Assembly (NCBI GenBank): GCA_947857085.1
Contig: CANUDF010000010.1
Span: forward strand, 1-36,617
Length of the DNA: 36,617 nt
Origin: Candidatus Gastranaerophilales bacterium
GTDB taxonomy: Bacteria > Cyanobacteriota > Vampirovibrionia > Gastranaerophilales > Gastranaerophilaceae
Direction: 5' to 3'
A model generated the notes under the pieces. The model was given only the letters and a program-made list of their open reading frames with translations, ran no database searches and was not told the origin of the DNA. Positions within the stretch are counted from its first letter, which is position 1, and each line of letters opens with the position of its first letter. Made by a program: the position numbers and the translations under genes. This document shows, piece after piece, positions 28,617 to 34,343 of the stretch.

Positions 28617-28767
28617 TGAGAGGGGAGATTCAAGATAAAATTATGAAAACTCTTGATATTCAGGCCTGACTTCAGTAGTTTTTTAATTGTTTAAAAATAA
28701 CATTTATAATTACCCTGTTAGCTAAGTTCAAAATATCCATGTGTATGGTACAGTTTCTTTGATAAAT

Positions 28768-30399
28768 ATGAGGATTGAAAAGGTGAACTTACAAAAAGCA
28801 GCTGTACTAACCATGGCAACTTTTACCATGTTGAATCTAAAGGCTTATGCGGCATTTGATAATATATTTCAGGCAAATCAACAAACAGGAGATAGAACTT
28901 ATGAAGTAAAAATAGGGACTGAATCCCTGACACAGTCTTTATCTCAGACAGGATATGGCACACTGAATGTAATAGGCAGCGGCAAAGACTCCATTCTTTC
29001 AGGCGAAATTAATTCTTCTACAAATGGAAGTTTTTTCAAATTAACATCTACAACACCAACAACACTTAACCTTAAAGATTTAACTATTACACAAGCAATA
29101 CAAAACAATGCCGGCGGATCTGTTATAGTTTTGCAAAACGGGAATACAGCTAATTTGGATAATGTAACCTTAAAAGAAAATTCTGCTTTTGCAAGTGGTG
29201 GAGCAATATACAGCAGCAACGGGAATCTAATAATAAATGACTCCATTTTTGATAATAATAGTTCTACAAACAGCACTGCAGGAGTTATTGTTGTCTATGG
29301 AAATAACGGAAACACTGAAATATATAATTCGATTTTTGAAAATAATAAAGCTCCTAACACCGGCGTAATTTATATCACAAGTAGTAATTTAATTTTAAAA
29401 GATTCAGTATTCAGAAATAACGAAAGCAGTTCAACTCTGCCAGGCAGCAATCCCGGGGCTATACGGCTTGGCAATGGAGATGGAGTAACCTCATTAATTG
29501 AACGATGCTCATTTGATAATAATATATCAGGAAACAATGCCGGAGCTGTTTATAGTTATGGAAATACGACAATAAAAGATTCTTCTTTTACAAATAATTA
29601 TGCAAACTTTAGAGGAGGAGCCCTGATTGTAGGGACTCAGAGCAATACCCAAATTACAGGAACAACTTTTAATGGAAACCAATCACAGGAATTTGCCGGA
29701 GCTATTTATAATGATGGGAATTTAACAATAGATAACAGTACTATATCAAATAATAAGGCATTGCATCATGAACCAACGCTGCAAGATGGACGAGGAGGTG
29801 CTATTTATAATAGCGGCACGGGTATTCTTAACCTGAACCAAGGTACACAACTTATTAATAACAGCGCTGCAGGTGAGGGAGGTGCAATAGCAAATTCAAC
29901 AAACGGTATTGTTAATATCACCGGAACAAACATTATAGGCAATAAATCAGATACTGATGGCGGAGGCATTTGGAATATAGGTCAAGTTACAATAAACGGC
30001 GGAACCAATATAGCAGATAACAGCGCCAAAGGGCAAGGCGGAGGGATTTATAACACAGGAACGGTCAATTTAACATCAGATGAAAACGGAAATATTATTT
30101 TTCAAAACAATAATTCATCAGCTGGGGCTAACGATATTTACAATACAAAACAAATTAACGTGAACGGTGAAACCGGAGCAGTTGTAATAAACAGTGGGGT
30201 TTCAGGCCAGGGATTTATAAACAAATACGGAGACGGTGCATTGCTTTTGCACGGCGACAACTCTAATTATACAGGAACCTTCAATCAAAATGACGGAACT
30301 ACTGCAATTTCGGATGGAAAATGGTTTACGGGTGACAGCAGTATTGAAGGTGGAACACTAGAATGGGGGCAAATGCACAAAAAACAGGTGGAGTTATAA
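28768..30399 (+). CDS. Autotransporter-like passenger, N-terminal part (frameshifted before the barrel)
   Basis: 543 residues. A signal peptide (about 1-27, ending LKAYA) is followed by a long right-handed beta-helix made of polymorphic-outer-membrane-type repeats: GGAIY, GGAL, GAVY, GGGIWN and similar turns, alternating with FxxN(N/S) motifs such as FDNN, FENN, FTNN and FNGN. The frame breaks at 30364-30371 within the helix and ends 28 bases later with an unrelated tail (MHKKQVEL). A TATAAT lies at 28705-28710 with a leader of about 50 bases. ATG 28768 is chosen, although GTG 28741 and GTG 28783 remain possible. With the next ORF it forms one protein of about 1,099 residues. Confidence 0.8.
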   Translation: MRIEKVNLQKAAVLTMATFTMLNLKAYAAFDNIFQANQQTGDRTYEVKIGTESLTQSLSQTGYGTLNVIGSGKDSILSGEINSSTNGSFFKLTSTTPTTLNLKDLTITQAIQNNAGGSVIVLQNGNTANLDNVTLKENSAFASGGAIYSSNGNLIINDSIFDNNSSTNSTAGVIVVYGNNGNTEIYNSIFENNKAPNTGVIYITSSNLILKDSVFRNNESSSTLPGSNPGAIRLGNGDGVTSLIERCSFDNNISGNNAGAVYSYGNTTIKDSSFTNNYANFRGGALIVGTQSNTQITGTTFNGNQSQEFAGAIYNDGNLTIDNSTISNNKALHHEPTLQDGRGGAIYNSGTGILNLNQGTQLINNSAAGEGGAIANSTNGIVNITGTNIIGNKSDTDGGGIWNIGQVTINGGTNIADNSAKGQGGGIYNTGTVNLTSDENGNIIFQNNNSSAGANDIYNTKQINVNGETGAVVINSGVSGQGFINKYGDGALLLHGDNSNYTGTFNQNDGTTAISDGKWFTGDSSIEGGTLEWGQMHKKQVEL

Positions 30400-32066
30400 A
30401 ACTAACAAACAGCAACTTATATGTGCATAAAGATGCAATACTTGACTTAAATAATACAGCCGATACAATTGAACAAAGTGCTGCAATTTATCTTGATACC
30501 TATGGTGTAATAAACAATATTGGGACTGTAAACTTTAACGAGGATGATATTTGGAACGGCAGGGTAAATAACACCGGCACACTTAATTTAAATAATATCA
30601 ATGCAAATAATGCAAAATTTTCCCATAGTGACGGCAGCCTTAATTTGAATAATAGTTCACAGCTTACAGTCAACAATGACAACAAAATAACCGGCGGGGA
30701 TATGAGTATAAATTCAGGCAGTACGTTAAATATCAGTAGTGGAAATTTTGCAGTCAATAACTTATCAATGAATAATGGTACAGTTAATTCATTAAACAAC
30801 ATAACTGAAGTCAGTAATATTGCTGATAGCTTTAATGTTGAAGACGGCGGAGCGCATTTTAATATTGATTTTGACGGTGATAAGAAACTTTCAGACCAAT
30901 ATCTTGCTGGAAACTTTACAGGAACAGGAACAATTTCAATCGACAAATATAATGTTTCCGGTGCCCCATATGACTATAGAATACCGTTTGACGTATTCAA
31001 CGGGAGCAACGTTGAGAACATGAATTTTGCAGCGACAAATGATCTAGTTAATACCCCGTTATACAGATATAGTCTTGTTTCCGAAGGAAGCGGCATTTAT
31101 TCGCTTATAAGAGGCACACAAAACCCCTCAATTAATCGTGGAGCAGAATCCGCGCAATCTGTTTTCTTAAACAATATTGGTGTAATCAATAAAATTTTTG
31201 AACACGTTTACATAGACAGTGAACAGTTAACCCAAATCAGAAAAAGCAAAAAAAACTTCAGTACAGTTTATATGCCATATCAAGACATAAACCATGAAGA
31301 TGGAAGCATTTGGTACAAGCCATATATAAGTTATGACAGATTTTCACTGCAAAACGGCAATATGATTTATAACACCTCTTACGGGTCTATTATAGGTTTT
31401 GACTTCCCTACACAGAAATTAAGAAATGAATGGAAATTTCTTCCGACAACATTCATAACATATCAGGGGGCAAGACAAGGCTCACACGGGGATAATTACT
31501 ATCAAAATGGCGGTATGGGTGGCTTTATGGGTACAATATTCAAAGGAGATTCAATATCTTCGCTTCTTGCATATGCAGGAGGCTACGGCAACGAAATGCA
31601 AGGCTATGGTTATGAAGATAAAACAGGGAACTGGTATGCTGGCGGGGCGGCAATCAGTGCATATAACTTTCACCCCAAGAAAAATATCATAATCCAACCG
31701 ATATTTTGGGCAACATATAATATTTTAGGTAAACAAAACTGGAGAAGCAGTTATGGCAATGTTCCAATGTCAACGGGATATTTAAACGGACTTGCAGTAT
31801 CACCAGGGTTAAATGCTTTTTATGGTACCGACAAATGGAGTATTTACGGTACAATTTCATATATATTCACAATAAACGACCATACAAAATCTTTTGCAGG
31901 TCCTGTGGAAATTGATTCTGCAAGATTAAAATACGGATTTTTACAATACGGTCTCGGCTATATAAGAACATGGAAAGATAGATTTCTCGCATATGGTCAG
32001 CTAACATTTAGACAAGGCGGCATGACAGGTGTAGGTTTCTGGGGCGGCATAACTTACAGGTTCTAA
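30363..32066 (+). CDS. Autotransporter C-terminal part: end of beta-helix and outer-membrane barrel
   Basis: 567 residues with no signal peptide. About 1-240 continue the Asn/Gly-rich helix. From about 300 the sequence turns into amphipathic strands with alternating aromatics (IWYKPYISYDRF, GYGNEMQGYGYEDKTGNWYAGG, WSIYGTISYIF) and ends YRF, with the terminal Phe of outer-membrane barrels. Its apparent start (MGANAQKTGG) is not a real start: no ribosome site precedes it, and adding one base to the G5 run joins EWG from the upstream frame to ANAQKTGGV. The two reading frames are therefore one gene. Confidence 0.8.
   Translation: MGANAQKTGGVIKLTNSNLYVHKDAILDLNNTADTIEQSAAIYLDTYGVINNIGTVNFNEDDIWNGRVNNTGTLNLNNINANNAKFSHSDGSLNLNNSSQLTVNNDNKITGGDMSINSGSTLNISSGNFAVNNLSMNNGTVNSLNNITEVSNIADSFNVEDGGAHFNIDFDGDKKLSDQYLAGNFTGTGTISIDKYNVSGAPYDYRIPFDVFNGSNVENMNFAATNDLVNTPLYRYSLVSEGSGIYSLIRGTQNPSINRGAESAQSVFLNNIGVINKIFEHVYIDSEQLTQIRKSKKNFSTVYMPYQDINHEDGSIWYKPYISYDRFSLQNGNMIYNTSYGSIIGFDFPTQKLRNEWKFLPTTFITYQGARQGSHGDNYYQNGGMGGFMGTIFKGDSISSLLAYAGGYGNEMQGYGYEDKTGNWYAGGAAISAYNFHPKKNIIIQPIFWATYNILGKQNWRSSYGNVPMSTGYLNGLAVSPGLNAFYGTDKWSIYGTISYIFTINDHTKSFAGPVEIDSARLKYGFLQYGLGYIRTWKDRFLAYGQLTFRQGGMTGVGFWGGITYRF
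30372..30376 (+). other. Approximate site of -1 frame change in the autotransporter gene (G5 run)
   Basis: The upstream frame reads GAA-TGG-GGG-CAA and the downstream frame GGG-GCA-AAT. One added G, or a -1 slip by the Gly tRNA on GGG (which re-pairs perfectly), restores one continuous protein. The run lies in TAGAATGGGGGCAAAT, a few bases after 30360. Whether it is slippage, variation or a sequencing indel cannot be told from one sequence. Confidence 0.6.
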
Positions 32067-32102: not shown

Positions 32103-32234
32103 TCAAATACAAAGTTTAATTACTATCGGAGAGAGTATCACTGAATTGCGTTCACAGCACTCTAATAATGCTTGTTTCATTTTGTCTTCCATATTTTTCT
32201 CACTTTCTTTTTTCACGAAAACACTTGTTTTCAT
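32103..32234 (-). CDS. Possible 43-residue peptide encoded inside repeat copy 1
   Basis: The frame on the minus strand reads MKTSVFVKK...MEDKMKQALLECCE and ends LCI. Its N-terminal two-thirds are encoded by the repeat that recurs at 33172. In the other copy, the two substitutions within MKTSVFVKK are both synonymous (AGT/AGC, TTC/TTT), and MEDKMKQALLECCE is identical. A 2-base indel breaks the frame between them there, leaving a 30-residue frame at 33122-33214. No good ribosome site is seen. It may be a fossil of a coding gene carried in the repeat. Confidence 0.3.
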   Translation of the reverse strand: MKTSVFVKKESEKNMEDKMKQALLECCERNSVILSPIVIKLCI

Positions 32235-32265
32235 GTTTCTTTACATTTCTACTTTCTATACTTGA
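32150..32265. repeat. Direct repeat copy 1 (upstream of higBA)
   Basis: Matches 33172-33290 in the same orientation. The first 43 bases are identical, and the following ~65 differ by six substitutions and a 2-base indel. The repeat ends at the -35 element of the toxin-antitoxin promoter (CTTGA). Confidence 0.9.
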
Positions 32266-32290
32266 CAACCGTAAGTTTACAGTTTATAAT
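32262..32290 (+). promoter_or_regulatory. Leaderless consensus promoter of higBA
   Basis: Perfect -35 TTGACA (32262-32267), 17-base spacer, perfect -10 TATAAT (32285-32290), then 6 bases to ATG 32297. The spacer carries GTAA-GT-TTAC (32271-32280), a short inverted repeat that could be the antitoxin operator. Confidence 0.8.
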
Positions 32291-32296
32291 ATATAT

Positions 32297-32575
32297 ATGA
32301 TTAAAAGTTTCAAACACAAAGGGCTTGAAAAATTTTATACGACAGGTAATACCAAAGGCATTCAGGCTATTCAAGCAAAAAAATTAAGACAATTACTCAC
32401 TATACTTAATGCAATGACTTCAACTGATGATTTAAAATTACCGTCACTTCGATTTCACCAATTACAAGGTCACAAAAAAAATCTTTATTCAATTACTGTT
32501 CAAGCTAACTGGCGTTTAACTTTTGAATTCGATAACGAAAATGTTTATATTCTTGACTATATCGATTACCATTAA
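32297..32575 (+). CDS. higB: HigB-type RelE/ParE-family toxin
   Basis: 92 residues, the usual HigB length. Family marks: the IKSFKHKGLEKFY start, KKLRQLLTILNAMTSTDDL helix, the LPSLRFHQLQGHKKNLYSI strand (killer-protein motif) and the RLTFEFDNENVYILDYIDYH C-terminus. HigB toxins are ribosome-dependent mRNA endonucleases. The toxin gene comes first, as is typical for higBA. A longer in-frame reading from 32168 runs through the repeat and promoter and is rejected. higA follows after 17 bases. Confidence 0.93.
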   Translation: MIKSFKHKGLEKFYTTGNTKGIQAIQAKKLRQLLTILNAMTSTDDLKLPSLRFHQLQGHKKNLYSITVQANWRLTFEFDNENVYILDYIDYH

Positions 32576-32592
32576 ACAGAAAGGATAACATT

Positions 32593-32877
32593 ATGGATAT
32601 GTATAACCCAACACACCCTGGTGAAATTTTAAAAGATTTATATCTACCGGATTATAATTTATCCGTTACTGCTTTTGCTTTAAAACTTGGTGTTTCAAGA
32701 ACAACTGCATCTGAACTTGTTAACGGCAAGAATGGTGTTTCTGCCGATATGGCTTTAAAACTTGCAAAAGCGTTCAAAACAACTCCGCAATTTTGGCTCA
32801 ATATGCAACAAACTTACGATTTGTGGCTGGCTAAACAACGTGTTGACCTCAACAATGTTGAAGTTATTGCATTGTAG
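32593..32877 (+). CDS. higA: HigA antitoxin (XRE-type DNA-binding)
   Basis: 94 residues. The family N-terminus NPTHPGEILKDLYLPDYNLS is followed by a helix-turn-helix (TAFALKLGVSRTTASELVNGKNGVS) and the PQFWLNMQQTYDLWLAKQ dimerisation helix. It neutralises HigB and represses the operon. AAAGGA lies about 7 bases before ATG 32593. Its 3' end overlaps a convergent fragment by 14 bases. Confidence 0.95.
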   Translation: MDMYNPTHPGEILKDLYLPDYNLSVTAFALKLGVSRTTASELVNGKNGVSADMALKLAKAFKTTPQFWLNMQQTYDLWLAKQRVDLNNVEVIAL

Positions 32878-33171: not shown

Positions 33172-33290
33172 GTTCACAGCACTCTAATAATGCTTGTTTC
33201 ATTTTGTCTTCCATGTTTTCCACATTTTCTTTTTTTTCACAAAAACGCTTGTTTTCATGTTTCTTTACATTTCTACTTTTTATTACTTGA
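33172..33290. repeat. Direct repeat copy 2 (upstream of hicAB)
   Basis: Second copy of the 32150-32265 repeat, starting GTTCACAGCACTC and ending at CTTGA of the hicA -35. The distance between copy starts is 1,022 bases, and the unit between them holds higBA and the 66-residue fragment. Confidence 0.9.
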
Positions 33291-33321: not shown

Positions 33322-33564
33322 ATGAGCAAACGAGAAAAACTGATACAAAAAATCCTTAAAGGAAATTCTGAAATTACACCGGGTGAAGCAAGAAAAATTC
33401 TTGAAAGCTTCGGTGATGCTGCAGAAGGACCCGCAGGAGGTAGCTCTCATTTAACTTTTAGAAAAGCAAATAGACCGTCAGTTACAATCGTTTTAACTCA
33501 AAATCCTTTAAAACCTTACATGGTTGCTAAAATACAGGCAGTATTAAAATTCGAGAGATACTAA
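33322..33564 (+). CDS. hicA: HicA mRNA interferase toxin
   Basis: 80 residues. The dsRBD-like HicA fold is recognised by the GEARKILESFG helix, GGSSHLTFRK with the catalytic His, and the terminal KPYMVAKIQAVL helix. HicA cleaves mRNA independently of translation. It has no Shine-Dalgarno site, in keeping with the leaderless promoter. hicB begins 1 base after its stop. Confidence 0.92.
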   Translation: MSKREKLIQKILKGNSEITPGEARKILESFGDAAEGPAGGSSHLTFRKANRPSVTIVLTQNPLKPYMVAKIQAVLKFERY

Positions 33565-33565
33565 T

Positions 33566-33928
33566 ATGAAAAAAAATCTTGATTACTACATGAATTTACC
33601 TTACAGTTACATTGTTGAATGGAGCGATGCCGATGAGTGCTATCTTGGCAGTATTGTCGAAATCGAAAAAAATATGACCTGCGGAGATTCTCCTGAAGAA
33701 GTTATTACAAACTTAAAAGAAGCTCTTGAAGCATATGTTAATACTAGCATTGCTAACGGTATGGATATTCCTGAACCTATTAAAATGGCTGACTATAAAG
33801 GCAATATTACTTATAGGACAACTGGACTAAAGCATTACCGTCTTGCCAAAATTGCTAAGCTTAAAGGTATGAGCATTAATGCCTTTATTGATGAAGCTGT
33901 TGAAGAAAAGCTACAAGAAACTGCATGA
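33566..33928 (+). CDS. hicB: HicB antitoxin
   Basis: 120 residues. The partial RNase-H-like HicB domain is at 1-75 (YSYIVEWSDADECYLGSI, PEEVITNLKEALEAYV). A C-terminal ribbon-helix-helix DNA-binding part is at about 88-120 (KHYRLAKIAKLKGMSINAFIDEAVEEKL). It blocks HicA and probably binds the 33295 palindrome. Translationally coupled to hicA. Confidence 0.92.
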   Translation: MKKNLDYYMNLPYSYIVEWSDADECYLGSIVEIEKNMTCGDSPEEVITNLKEALEAYVNTSIANGMDIPEPIKMADYKGNITYRTTGLKHYRLAKIAKLKGMSINAFIDEAVEEKLQETA

Positions 33929-33968: not shown

Positions 33969-33997
33969 TTGAAAAACTACAAAAAATCATAAATAAT
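33969..33997 (+). promoter_or_regulatory. Promoter of a putative small RNA
   Basis: -35 TTGAAA (33969-33974), 17-base spacer, -10 AATAAT (33992-33997). +1 falls at G34004, the first paired base of the following long hairpin, and no open reading frame of note follows. Confidence 0.5.
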
Positions 33998-34003
33998 GAG
34001 CAT

Positions 34004-34120
34004 GTAGGGGGGAACCCTAAGAAAAGGACGTTTTCCTTAGAGTTCCACTTCATACCTACAATGAAAGAATTGCTAAAATTAATTTAGCTAAAAGCTCTAG
34101 TATTACTAGGGCTTTTATTA
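34004..34120 (+). ncRNA. Putative small RNA of about 117 nt
   Basis: The predicted transcript begins with a long hairpin. GTAGG (34004-34008) pairs with CCTAC (34055-34059). After an asymmetric internal loop, GG-AAC pairs with GTT-CC. CTAAG (34017-34021) pairs with CTTAG (34036-34040) and AAAA with TTTT around a GGACG loop. A single-stranded AU-rich linker follows (34061-34089), containing an 8-codon frame MKELLKLI without a ribosome site. It ends in a strong terminator hairpin: AAAAGC-T-CTAGTA (34090-34102) with TACTAG-G-GCTTTT (34104-34116), then ATTATTG. No known RNA family recognised. Located 75 bases after hicB, so an antitoxin, regulatory or replication-control RNA is possible. Confidence 0.5.
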
Positions 34121-34192
34121 TTGTTACCAATAATACTTTCATAGCTTACCACGCCCCTCTCGTTCATTTCATTCATTGTCCTGTAACGGAGT

Positions 34193-34219
34193 GGTAGTAA
34201 GTTGTAGATACTTACTACC
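34193..34219. repeat. Perfect 10-bp inverted repeat
   Basis: GGTAGTAAGT pairs with ACTTACTACC around a 7-base loop (TGTAGAT). There is no T-run on either strand. On the minus strand the stop codon of the 42-codon frame lies within it. It could be a binding site or an RNA processing hairpin. Confidence 0.6.
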
Positions 34220-34343
34220 CAAGTAATCCCTGCAAGCCTATAATATAATCTCCTATTGCTTCAAACTGTGTATTAATTGCTTCAAGCGGTATTCCTGCCC
34301 CCCCCTGGGCAAAGACCTCTAATGATTTCATATATTTAAGCAT
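34215..34343 (-). CDS. Possible 42-residue peptide with a G8 tract
   Basis: The frame reads MLKYMKSLEVFAQGG, then AGIPLEAINTQFEAIG and DYIIGLQGLLG. The composition is coding-like: amphipathic, with a Gly-Gly turn at 14-15 that resembles a double-glycine leader site, though a short one. The GG is encoded by an uninterrupted run of eight G (C8 at 34298-34305 on plus), which is prone to length change. No ribosome site is seen, and a terminator-like hairpin lies just upstream. No transporter or processing gene is nearby. Confidence 0.3.
   Translation of the reverse strand: MLKYMKSLEVFAQGGAGIPLEAINTQFEAIGDYIIGLQGLLG

Follow-up and report, generated by a model that had tools for sequence, protein, structure and literature searches.

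The locus and its neighborhood

The window analysed here is a stretch of 36,617 nucleotides of contig CANUDF010000010.1, from a Candidatus Gastranaerophilales genome (GCA_947857085.1). Downstream of its hicAB genes lies a predicted small RNA gene on the plus strand, overlapping a short ORF on the minus strand. The promoter of the RNA (33969..33997, plus strand) consists of TTGAAA (33969-33974), a 17-nt spacer and AATAAT (33992-33997), matching the consensus at 10 of 12 positions; promoter-like sites are by themselves not rare (2 observed vs. 1.6 expected in shuffles), but this one is conserved in relatives. The predicted RNA of about 115-120 nt (34004..34122, plus strand) has a minimum free energy of -38.9 kcal/mol, against -23.2 for dinucleotide shuffles (z -4.79, equalled by none of 200), and relatives keep the unit. 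Its 5' hairpin (34004..34059, plus strand) combines a GTAGG..CCTAC closing stem, which adjoins the antisense of the stop codon of the minus-strand ORF, with inner stems. An intrinsic terminator (34089..34122, plus strand) follows, with a perfect 13-pair stem at 34089-34117 and a T-rich tail; the terminator scan found one, where 0.3 were expected.

These elements had been proposed in a first-pass annotation made from the letters alone, and they stand: the promoter is where it was placed, folding of 34004-34122 reproduces the long hairpin with its inner stems, the strong terminator does end near 34120, and a noncoding RNA of roughly the 117 nt foreseen is well supported. The accompanying statement that no sizeable ORF lies here is correct for the plus strand but leaves out the minus strand, which carries a conserved ORF of 28 codons, MKVLLVTIIKALVILELLAKLILAILSL (34056..34142, ATG at 34142). 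The RNA is antisense to this ORF, a putative toxin gene, and its terminator lies within it, so the term free-standing does not apply. The plus-strand terminator corresponds, on the minus strand, to a palindrome internal to the ORF and is followed by TTTTATTAT, the antisense of ATA ATA AAA (Ile-Ile-Lys). Of the toxin gene, the RNA spans the 3' UTR and roughly the final 20 codons, leaving the ribosome site outside. The antitoxin side of this copy looks intact from its sequence.

The 28-residue window peptide is hydrophobic (GRAVY 2.27). Upstream of its ORF, sequence comparison gives a weak ribosome binding site GAGAGGGGCG (34152..34161, minus strand; GAAAGGAGGTG in relatives), and folding gives a 10-pair leader hairpin GGTAGTAAG..CTTACTACC (34193..34219, minus strand), with a similar element in locus L003. 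The 3' arm of this hairpin can alternatively pair with GTGGTAAG directly upstream of the start codon; the two folds are predicted at -26.0 and -16.6 kcal/mol, and this exchange is a possible two-state switch. By analogy with relatives, the leader (34143..34234, minus strand) presumably begins near GCAGGG at 34234. The region expected to hold the toxin promoter (34236..34290, minus strand) has only a weak candidate (best score 8.6, 19-nt spacer), and the search upstream of the leader (34236-34290) found no well-spaced promoter.

We also noted features elsewhere in the window. A near-identical repeat of about 110 bp occurs at 32150-32259 and 33172-33283, 1,022 bp apart, the copies preceding two different type II pairs, one HigBA-like (32168-32877) and the other HicAB (33322-33928). 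On the minus strand both copies contain the beginning of the same short ORF (MEDKMKQALLECCE...), whose two versions diverge afterwards. Beyond adjacency, no link between hicAB and the small RNA was found. The overlapping ORFs at 28741-30399 and 30363-32066 look like a single autotransporter-type gene split by a frameshift.

A many-copy family in Gastranaerophilales

Among 59 genomes, comprising the window's own and relatives, 14 gave matches in a DNA search. Some of these matches were limited to the promoter and 5' hairpin, others to the terminator. On the opposite strand, loci of both kinds follow one plan: a leader with a ribosome site, a short hydrophobic ORF, a hairpin, and a promoter pointing back. 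We built a covariance model (R1) from six loci, excluding the window, to cover the toxin leader together with codons 1 to 5 of the ORF. Of the 146 genomes in the window's family, 69 contain units that R1 recognises, 160 in all. This total includes five in the window genome besides the window copy, three of which lie at spacings of about 300 bp; a DNA search using the window unit as query does not find these five, which are too divergent. Elsewhere in the order R1 gave one plausible unit (G051), with a typical 3' hairpin, and its sole match elsewhere in the phylum (G274, E 1e-4) was rejected as its sequence looked like chance. The family seen by R1 appears lineage-restricted, and more distant leaders would escape the model. 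R1 gave no match to the window's own leader. The nearest relatives of the window unit by peptide include L143, L122, L021, L029, and L026; L143 and L122 have the typical leader, from which that of the window differs.

The sequence downstream was analysed for 94 leader matches, where both the promoter and all of the ORF after codon 5 lie outside R1 and form an independent test. All but two leaders, which lack any ORF, precede an ORF of 15-45 codons (92 of 94), yielding 84 distinct peptides with median GRAVY 1.61; family peptides are 18-35 aa and mostly hydrophobic. In 84 of the 92 units an antisense promoter reaching 10 of 12 or more lies past the stop codon, always by 43-73 nt; the control direction gave 4 of 92. 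At L053 and L054 (1501-1590) there is an ORF only if ATA is accepted as start, while leader, in-ORF palindrome, and antisense promoter are kept, which suggests lost toxin start codons. A 32-residue class ending like KEKAPELELLELFLKS (L114, L120, L121, L123, L127, L139, L140, L144, L146, and L155) has the same leader and antisense promoter and is among the less hydrophobic ORFs.

A search of GTDB genomes with the palindrome pattern gave matches that include records of Candidatus Gastranaerophilales, Melainabacteria, and Cyanobacteria. Palindrome matches in records named as Bacillota (L025) and Clostridia (L032) were dropped, having no in-frame start codon. The palindrome AAAGCCCTAGNNNTNCTAGAGCT also occurs in 31 viral contigs (L073-L103), inside a 12-codon frame MFKKKALVLLEL. 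Because these contigs lack a good ribosome site and show no consistent antisense promoter, they were taken as unrelated, and the leader pattern was not found in the viral contigs; the element is probably a conserved phage terminator, or a tiny ORF, outside the family.

Covariation and selection

Three structural elements were examined for compensatory changes, using separate alignments of nearer members. The leader hairpin has them at all 17 pairs, scoring 0.431 against 0.057-0.102 for slid controls (90 distinct leaders), in an alignment fitted to R1, which favours this result. At the in-ORF terminator they occur at 9 of 14 pairs (0.469 vs. at most 0.145 slid; ungapped alignment of 33 related ORFs), and at the 5' hairpin at 10 of 17 (0.264 vs. 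at most 0.109 slid; 37 sequences including the window). None of 500 shuffles reached the score of any of the three, a control that is inflated by relatedness. RNAalifold on MAFFT alignments of distant members did not yield a structure, owing to sequence differences between the hairpins. The two antitoxin elements pass the covariation check suggested in the first-pass annotation, and the leader points at the family level to a structured toxin mRNA whose ribosome site would be masked by an SD-masking hairpin.

The in-ORF palindrome was compared with synonymous recodings using window codon usage. Recoding weakens the fold: of 91 ORFs, 87 have z below -2. The perfect in-ORF stem has a median of 14 pairs, where recoded ORFs average 5.1, and the 13-pair stem of the window ORF is attained by none of 200 recodings. 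The palindrome is therefore no by-product of the peptide. Exactly ATA ATA AAA is used in 29 of the 41 ORFs that contain IIK. The peptide itself is, on these sequence ratios, under purifying selection, with pN/pS at 0.30 for the subfamily that contains the window copy and at 0.45 for a second subfamily, values that the overlapping antisense gene could distort.

A proposed toxin-antitoxin family and its relation to known systems

Of the origins that the first-pass annotation had offered for the RNA, an RNA antitoxin is the one favored by the evidence. Layout, conservation, covariation, peptide selection, copy number, and the presence of a genomic RNase III gene (236.9 bits vs. a cut-off of 166.25) are read from sequence, and from them we infer transcription and toxicity. 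With good confidence we interpret the locus as a cis-encoded type I toxin-antitoxin pair of a new family, its small RNA being very probably the antitoxin to one of a family of tiny toxins. The window and family peptides are small and hydrophobic like type I toxins, which usually have fewer than 60 aa, and the sequence predicts that an RNA complementary to the toxin mRNA is transcribed separately, from a promoter of its own. Units also form tandem clusters, as in other type I families.

The minus-strand mRNA would carry a leader that hides the ribosome site and would encode a peptide of 21-32 residues, in most cases hydrophobic and probably inserted in the membrane. From the strong promoter just past the toxin stop codon the plus-strand RNA of about 115 nt would arise. 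It would form its hairpin first, continue in antisense orientation across the 3' portion of the toxin ORF, and terminate at the in-ORF palindrome, which doubles as code for mid-peptide. Because the antitoxin falls short of the ribosome site, we propose that it probably pairs with the mRNA's 3' half, the duplex leading to RNase III cleavage and/or holding the mRNA in a closed fold. Duplex formation with RNase III cleavage is the most likely route, by analogy with the 3'-overlapping systems bsrG/SR4 and yonT/SR6 (PMC8309996, PMC5848175). Matching AGGG and CCCT motifs occur at the leader and 3' end of the toxin mRNA, and their pairing could close it end to end, as in aapA (PMC6733600). The membrane target and cellular role assigned to the pair are likewise inferred.

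For the window copy itself, the toxin may be weak or decaying, because of its weak ribosome site, its divergent leader, missed by R1, and the lack of a clear toxin promoter. A degenerate remnant, in which the RNA is kept, possibly to act in trans, and the toxin is no longer made, is a tenable but doubtful reading of this copy, and one compatible with the type I reading of the family. The five other units in the genome also speak for it; their divergence from the window unit, however, speaks against action in trans, and the window peptide is intact, with 7 synonymous and no non-synonymous differences from L143 in the last 22 codons.

It is improbable that the family is no toxin-antitoxin system and that the antisense RNA controls a non-toxic small membrane or signalling peptide. 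Toxicity is a prediction, peptide sequences vary widely, and small hydrophobic membrane proteins are common; yet the features here are all typical of type I loci: the ribosome site is masked, the antisense promoter is strong, numerous copies lie in tandem arrays, the peptide diverges freely, and L053 and L054 retain the RNA after loss of the start codon. A regulatory RNA with no tie to the opposite strand is very improbable, since the ORF, leader, and selection on that strand are conserved along with the RNA in relatives, although a hairpin and terminator alone would give such an appearance. We give almost no credence to a palindromic mobile repeat (MITE or REP type) carrying a short ORF by chance: copies are many per genome and some are tandem, but structure and reading frame persist despite strong sequence divergence, pN/pS is below 1, and the promoter has a fixed direction and distance. 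The earlier idea of a control RNA left from a plasmid-like element found no sign in its favor, with no match in plasmid or phage collections.

Returning to the type I reading, we think it reasonably probable, with less assurance than for the locus, that the Gastranaerophilales units form a superfamily in which leader hairpin, antisense promoter, and 5' hairpin are fixed while unrelated hydrophobic peptides turn over, each encoding the palindrome of the antitoxin terminator. If so, toxin protein sequence and antitoxin termination would make one co-evolving element. The in-ORF terminator is an unusually clear example of an overlapping RNA signal shaping protein sequence.

The family matched none of the libraries searched. 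The Rfam search that the first-pass annotation had advised found no covariance model at the window site, nor at five family loci. Seven peptides had no match in Pfam and NCBIfam up to E 10, Fst-type families included, such profiles being weak at these short lengths, and five more family peptides had none in Pfam. PHROGs and PDB sequence searches gave no family, the one weak PHROG (E 0.033) being of unknown function. As the genes are also too short for ordinary gene calling, a leader-based model is a practical means of finding them. In the literature searched, with most subscription journals outside its scope, no report joined type I toxin-antitoxin systems with Melainabacteria, and the two that mention Gastranaerophilales and toxin-antitoxin systems concerned, judging from title and abstract, other subjects. 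The family is apparently undescribed, though subscription journals may hold an earlier description. A 2025 paper states that type I systems were known only from Proteobacteria, Firmicutes, and Tenericutes, and proposes the first candidate in Cyanobacteria (PMC12390103). A many-copy Gastranaerophilales family would extend type I systems to a little-studied gut and environmental lineage.

The closest parallels are found in several known systems. Like the Gastranaerophilales units, aapA/IsoA of Helicobacter and other Epsilonproteobacteria (eLife 47549, PMC6733600; PMC8309996) has a membrane peptide of about 30 aa, a similar-sized cis antisense RNA opposite the ORF, a masked ribosome site, and several copies per genome. 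The antitoxin promoter of aapA3/IsoA3 lies within the toxin ORF, going by the Figure 1B legend and its promoter mutations (PMC6733600), whereas the units here have the promoter past the stop codon (43-73 nt in 84 of 92) and the terminator in the ORF. The in-ORF element here being a terminator and not a promoter, membership in aapA/IsoA was rejected.

The txpA/RatA, bsrG/SR4, and yonT/SR6 pairs of Bacillus subtilis are described as likewise convergent and overlapping at the toxin 3' end, with RNase III degrading the duplex in bsrG/SR4 and involved in yonT/SR6 (PMC8309996, PMC5848175). Their toxins are given there as longer (BsrG 38 aa, YonT 58 aa), and we saw no comparable conserved in-ORF palindrome in these descriptions, which address the point only in part. 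Fst/RNAII (par of pAD1) shares a small hydrophobic toxin, antisense RNA control, and a masked ribosome site; its RNAs meet at their intrinsic terminator loops, pairing then extending to direct repeats at the 5' ends (PMC8309996), while the Gastranaerophilales antitoxin terminator sits in the ORF. A further parallel is msoT1/msoA1 of Microcystis aeruginosa, also a candidate type I system of the cyanobacterial phylum, where overlap with the coding sequence and 3' UTR of the toxin is described for 6 of 10 candidate antitoxins (PMC12390103). The toxins there differ in having 39-81 aa and one or two predicted transmembrane helices (PMC12390103), and the present family is, by contrast and from the R1 search of order and phylum, essentially confined to the window's own family.
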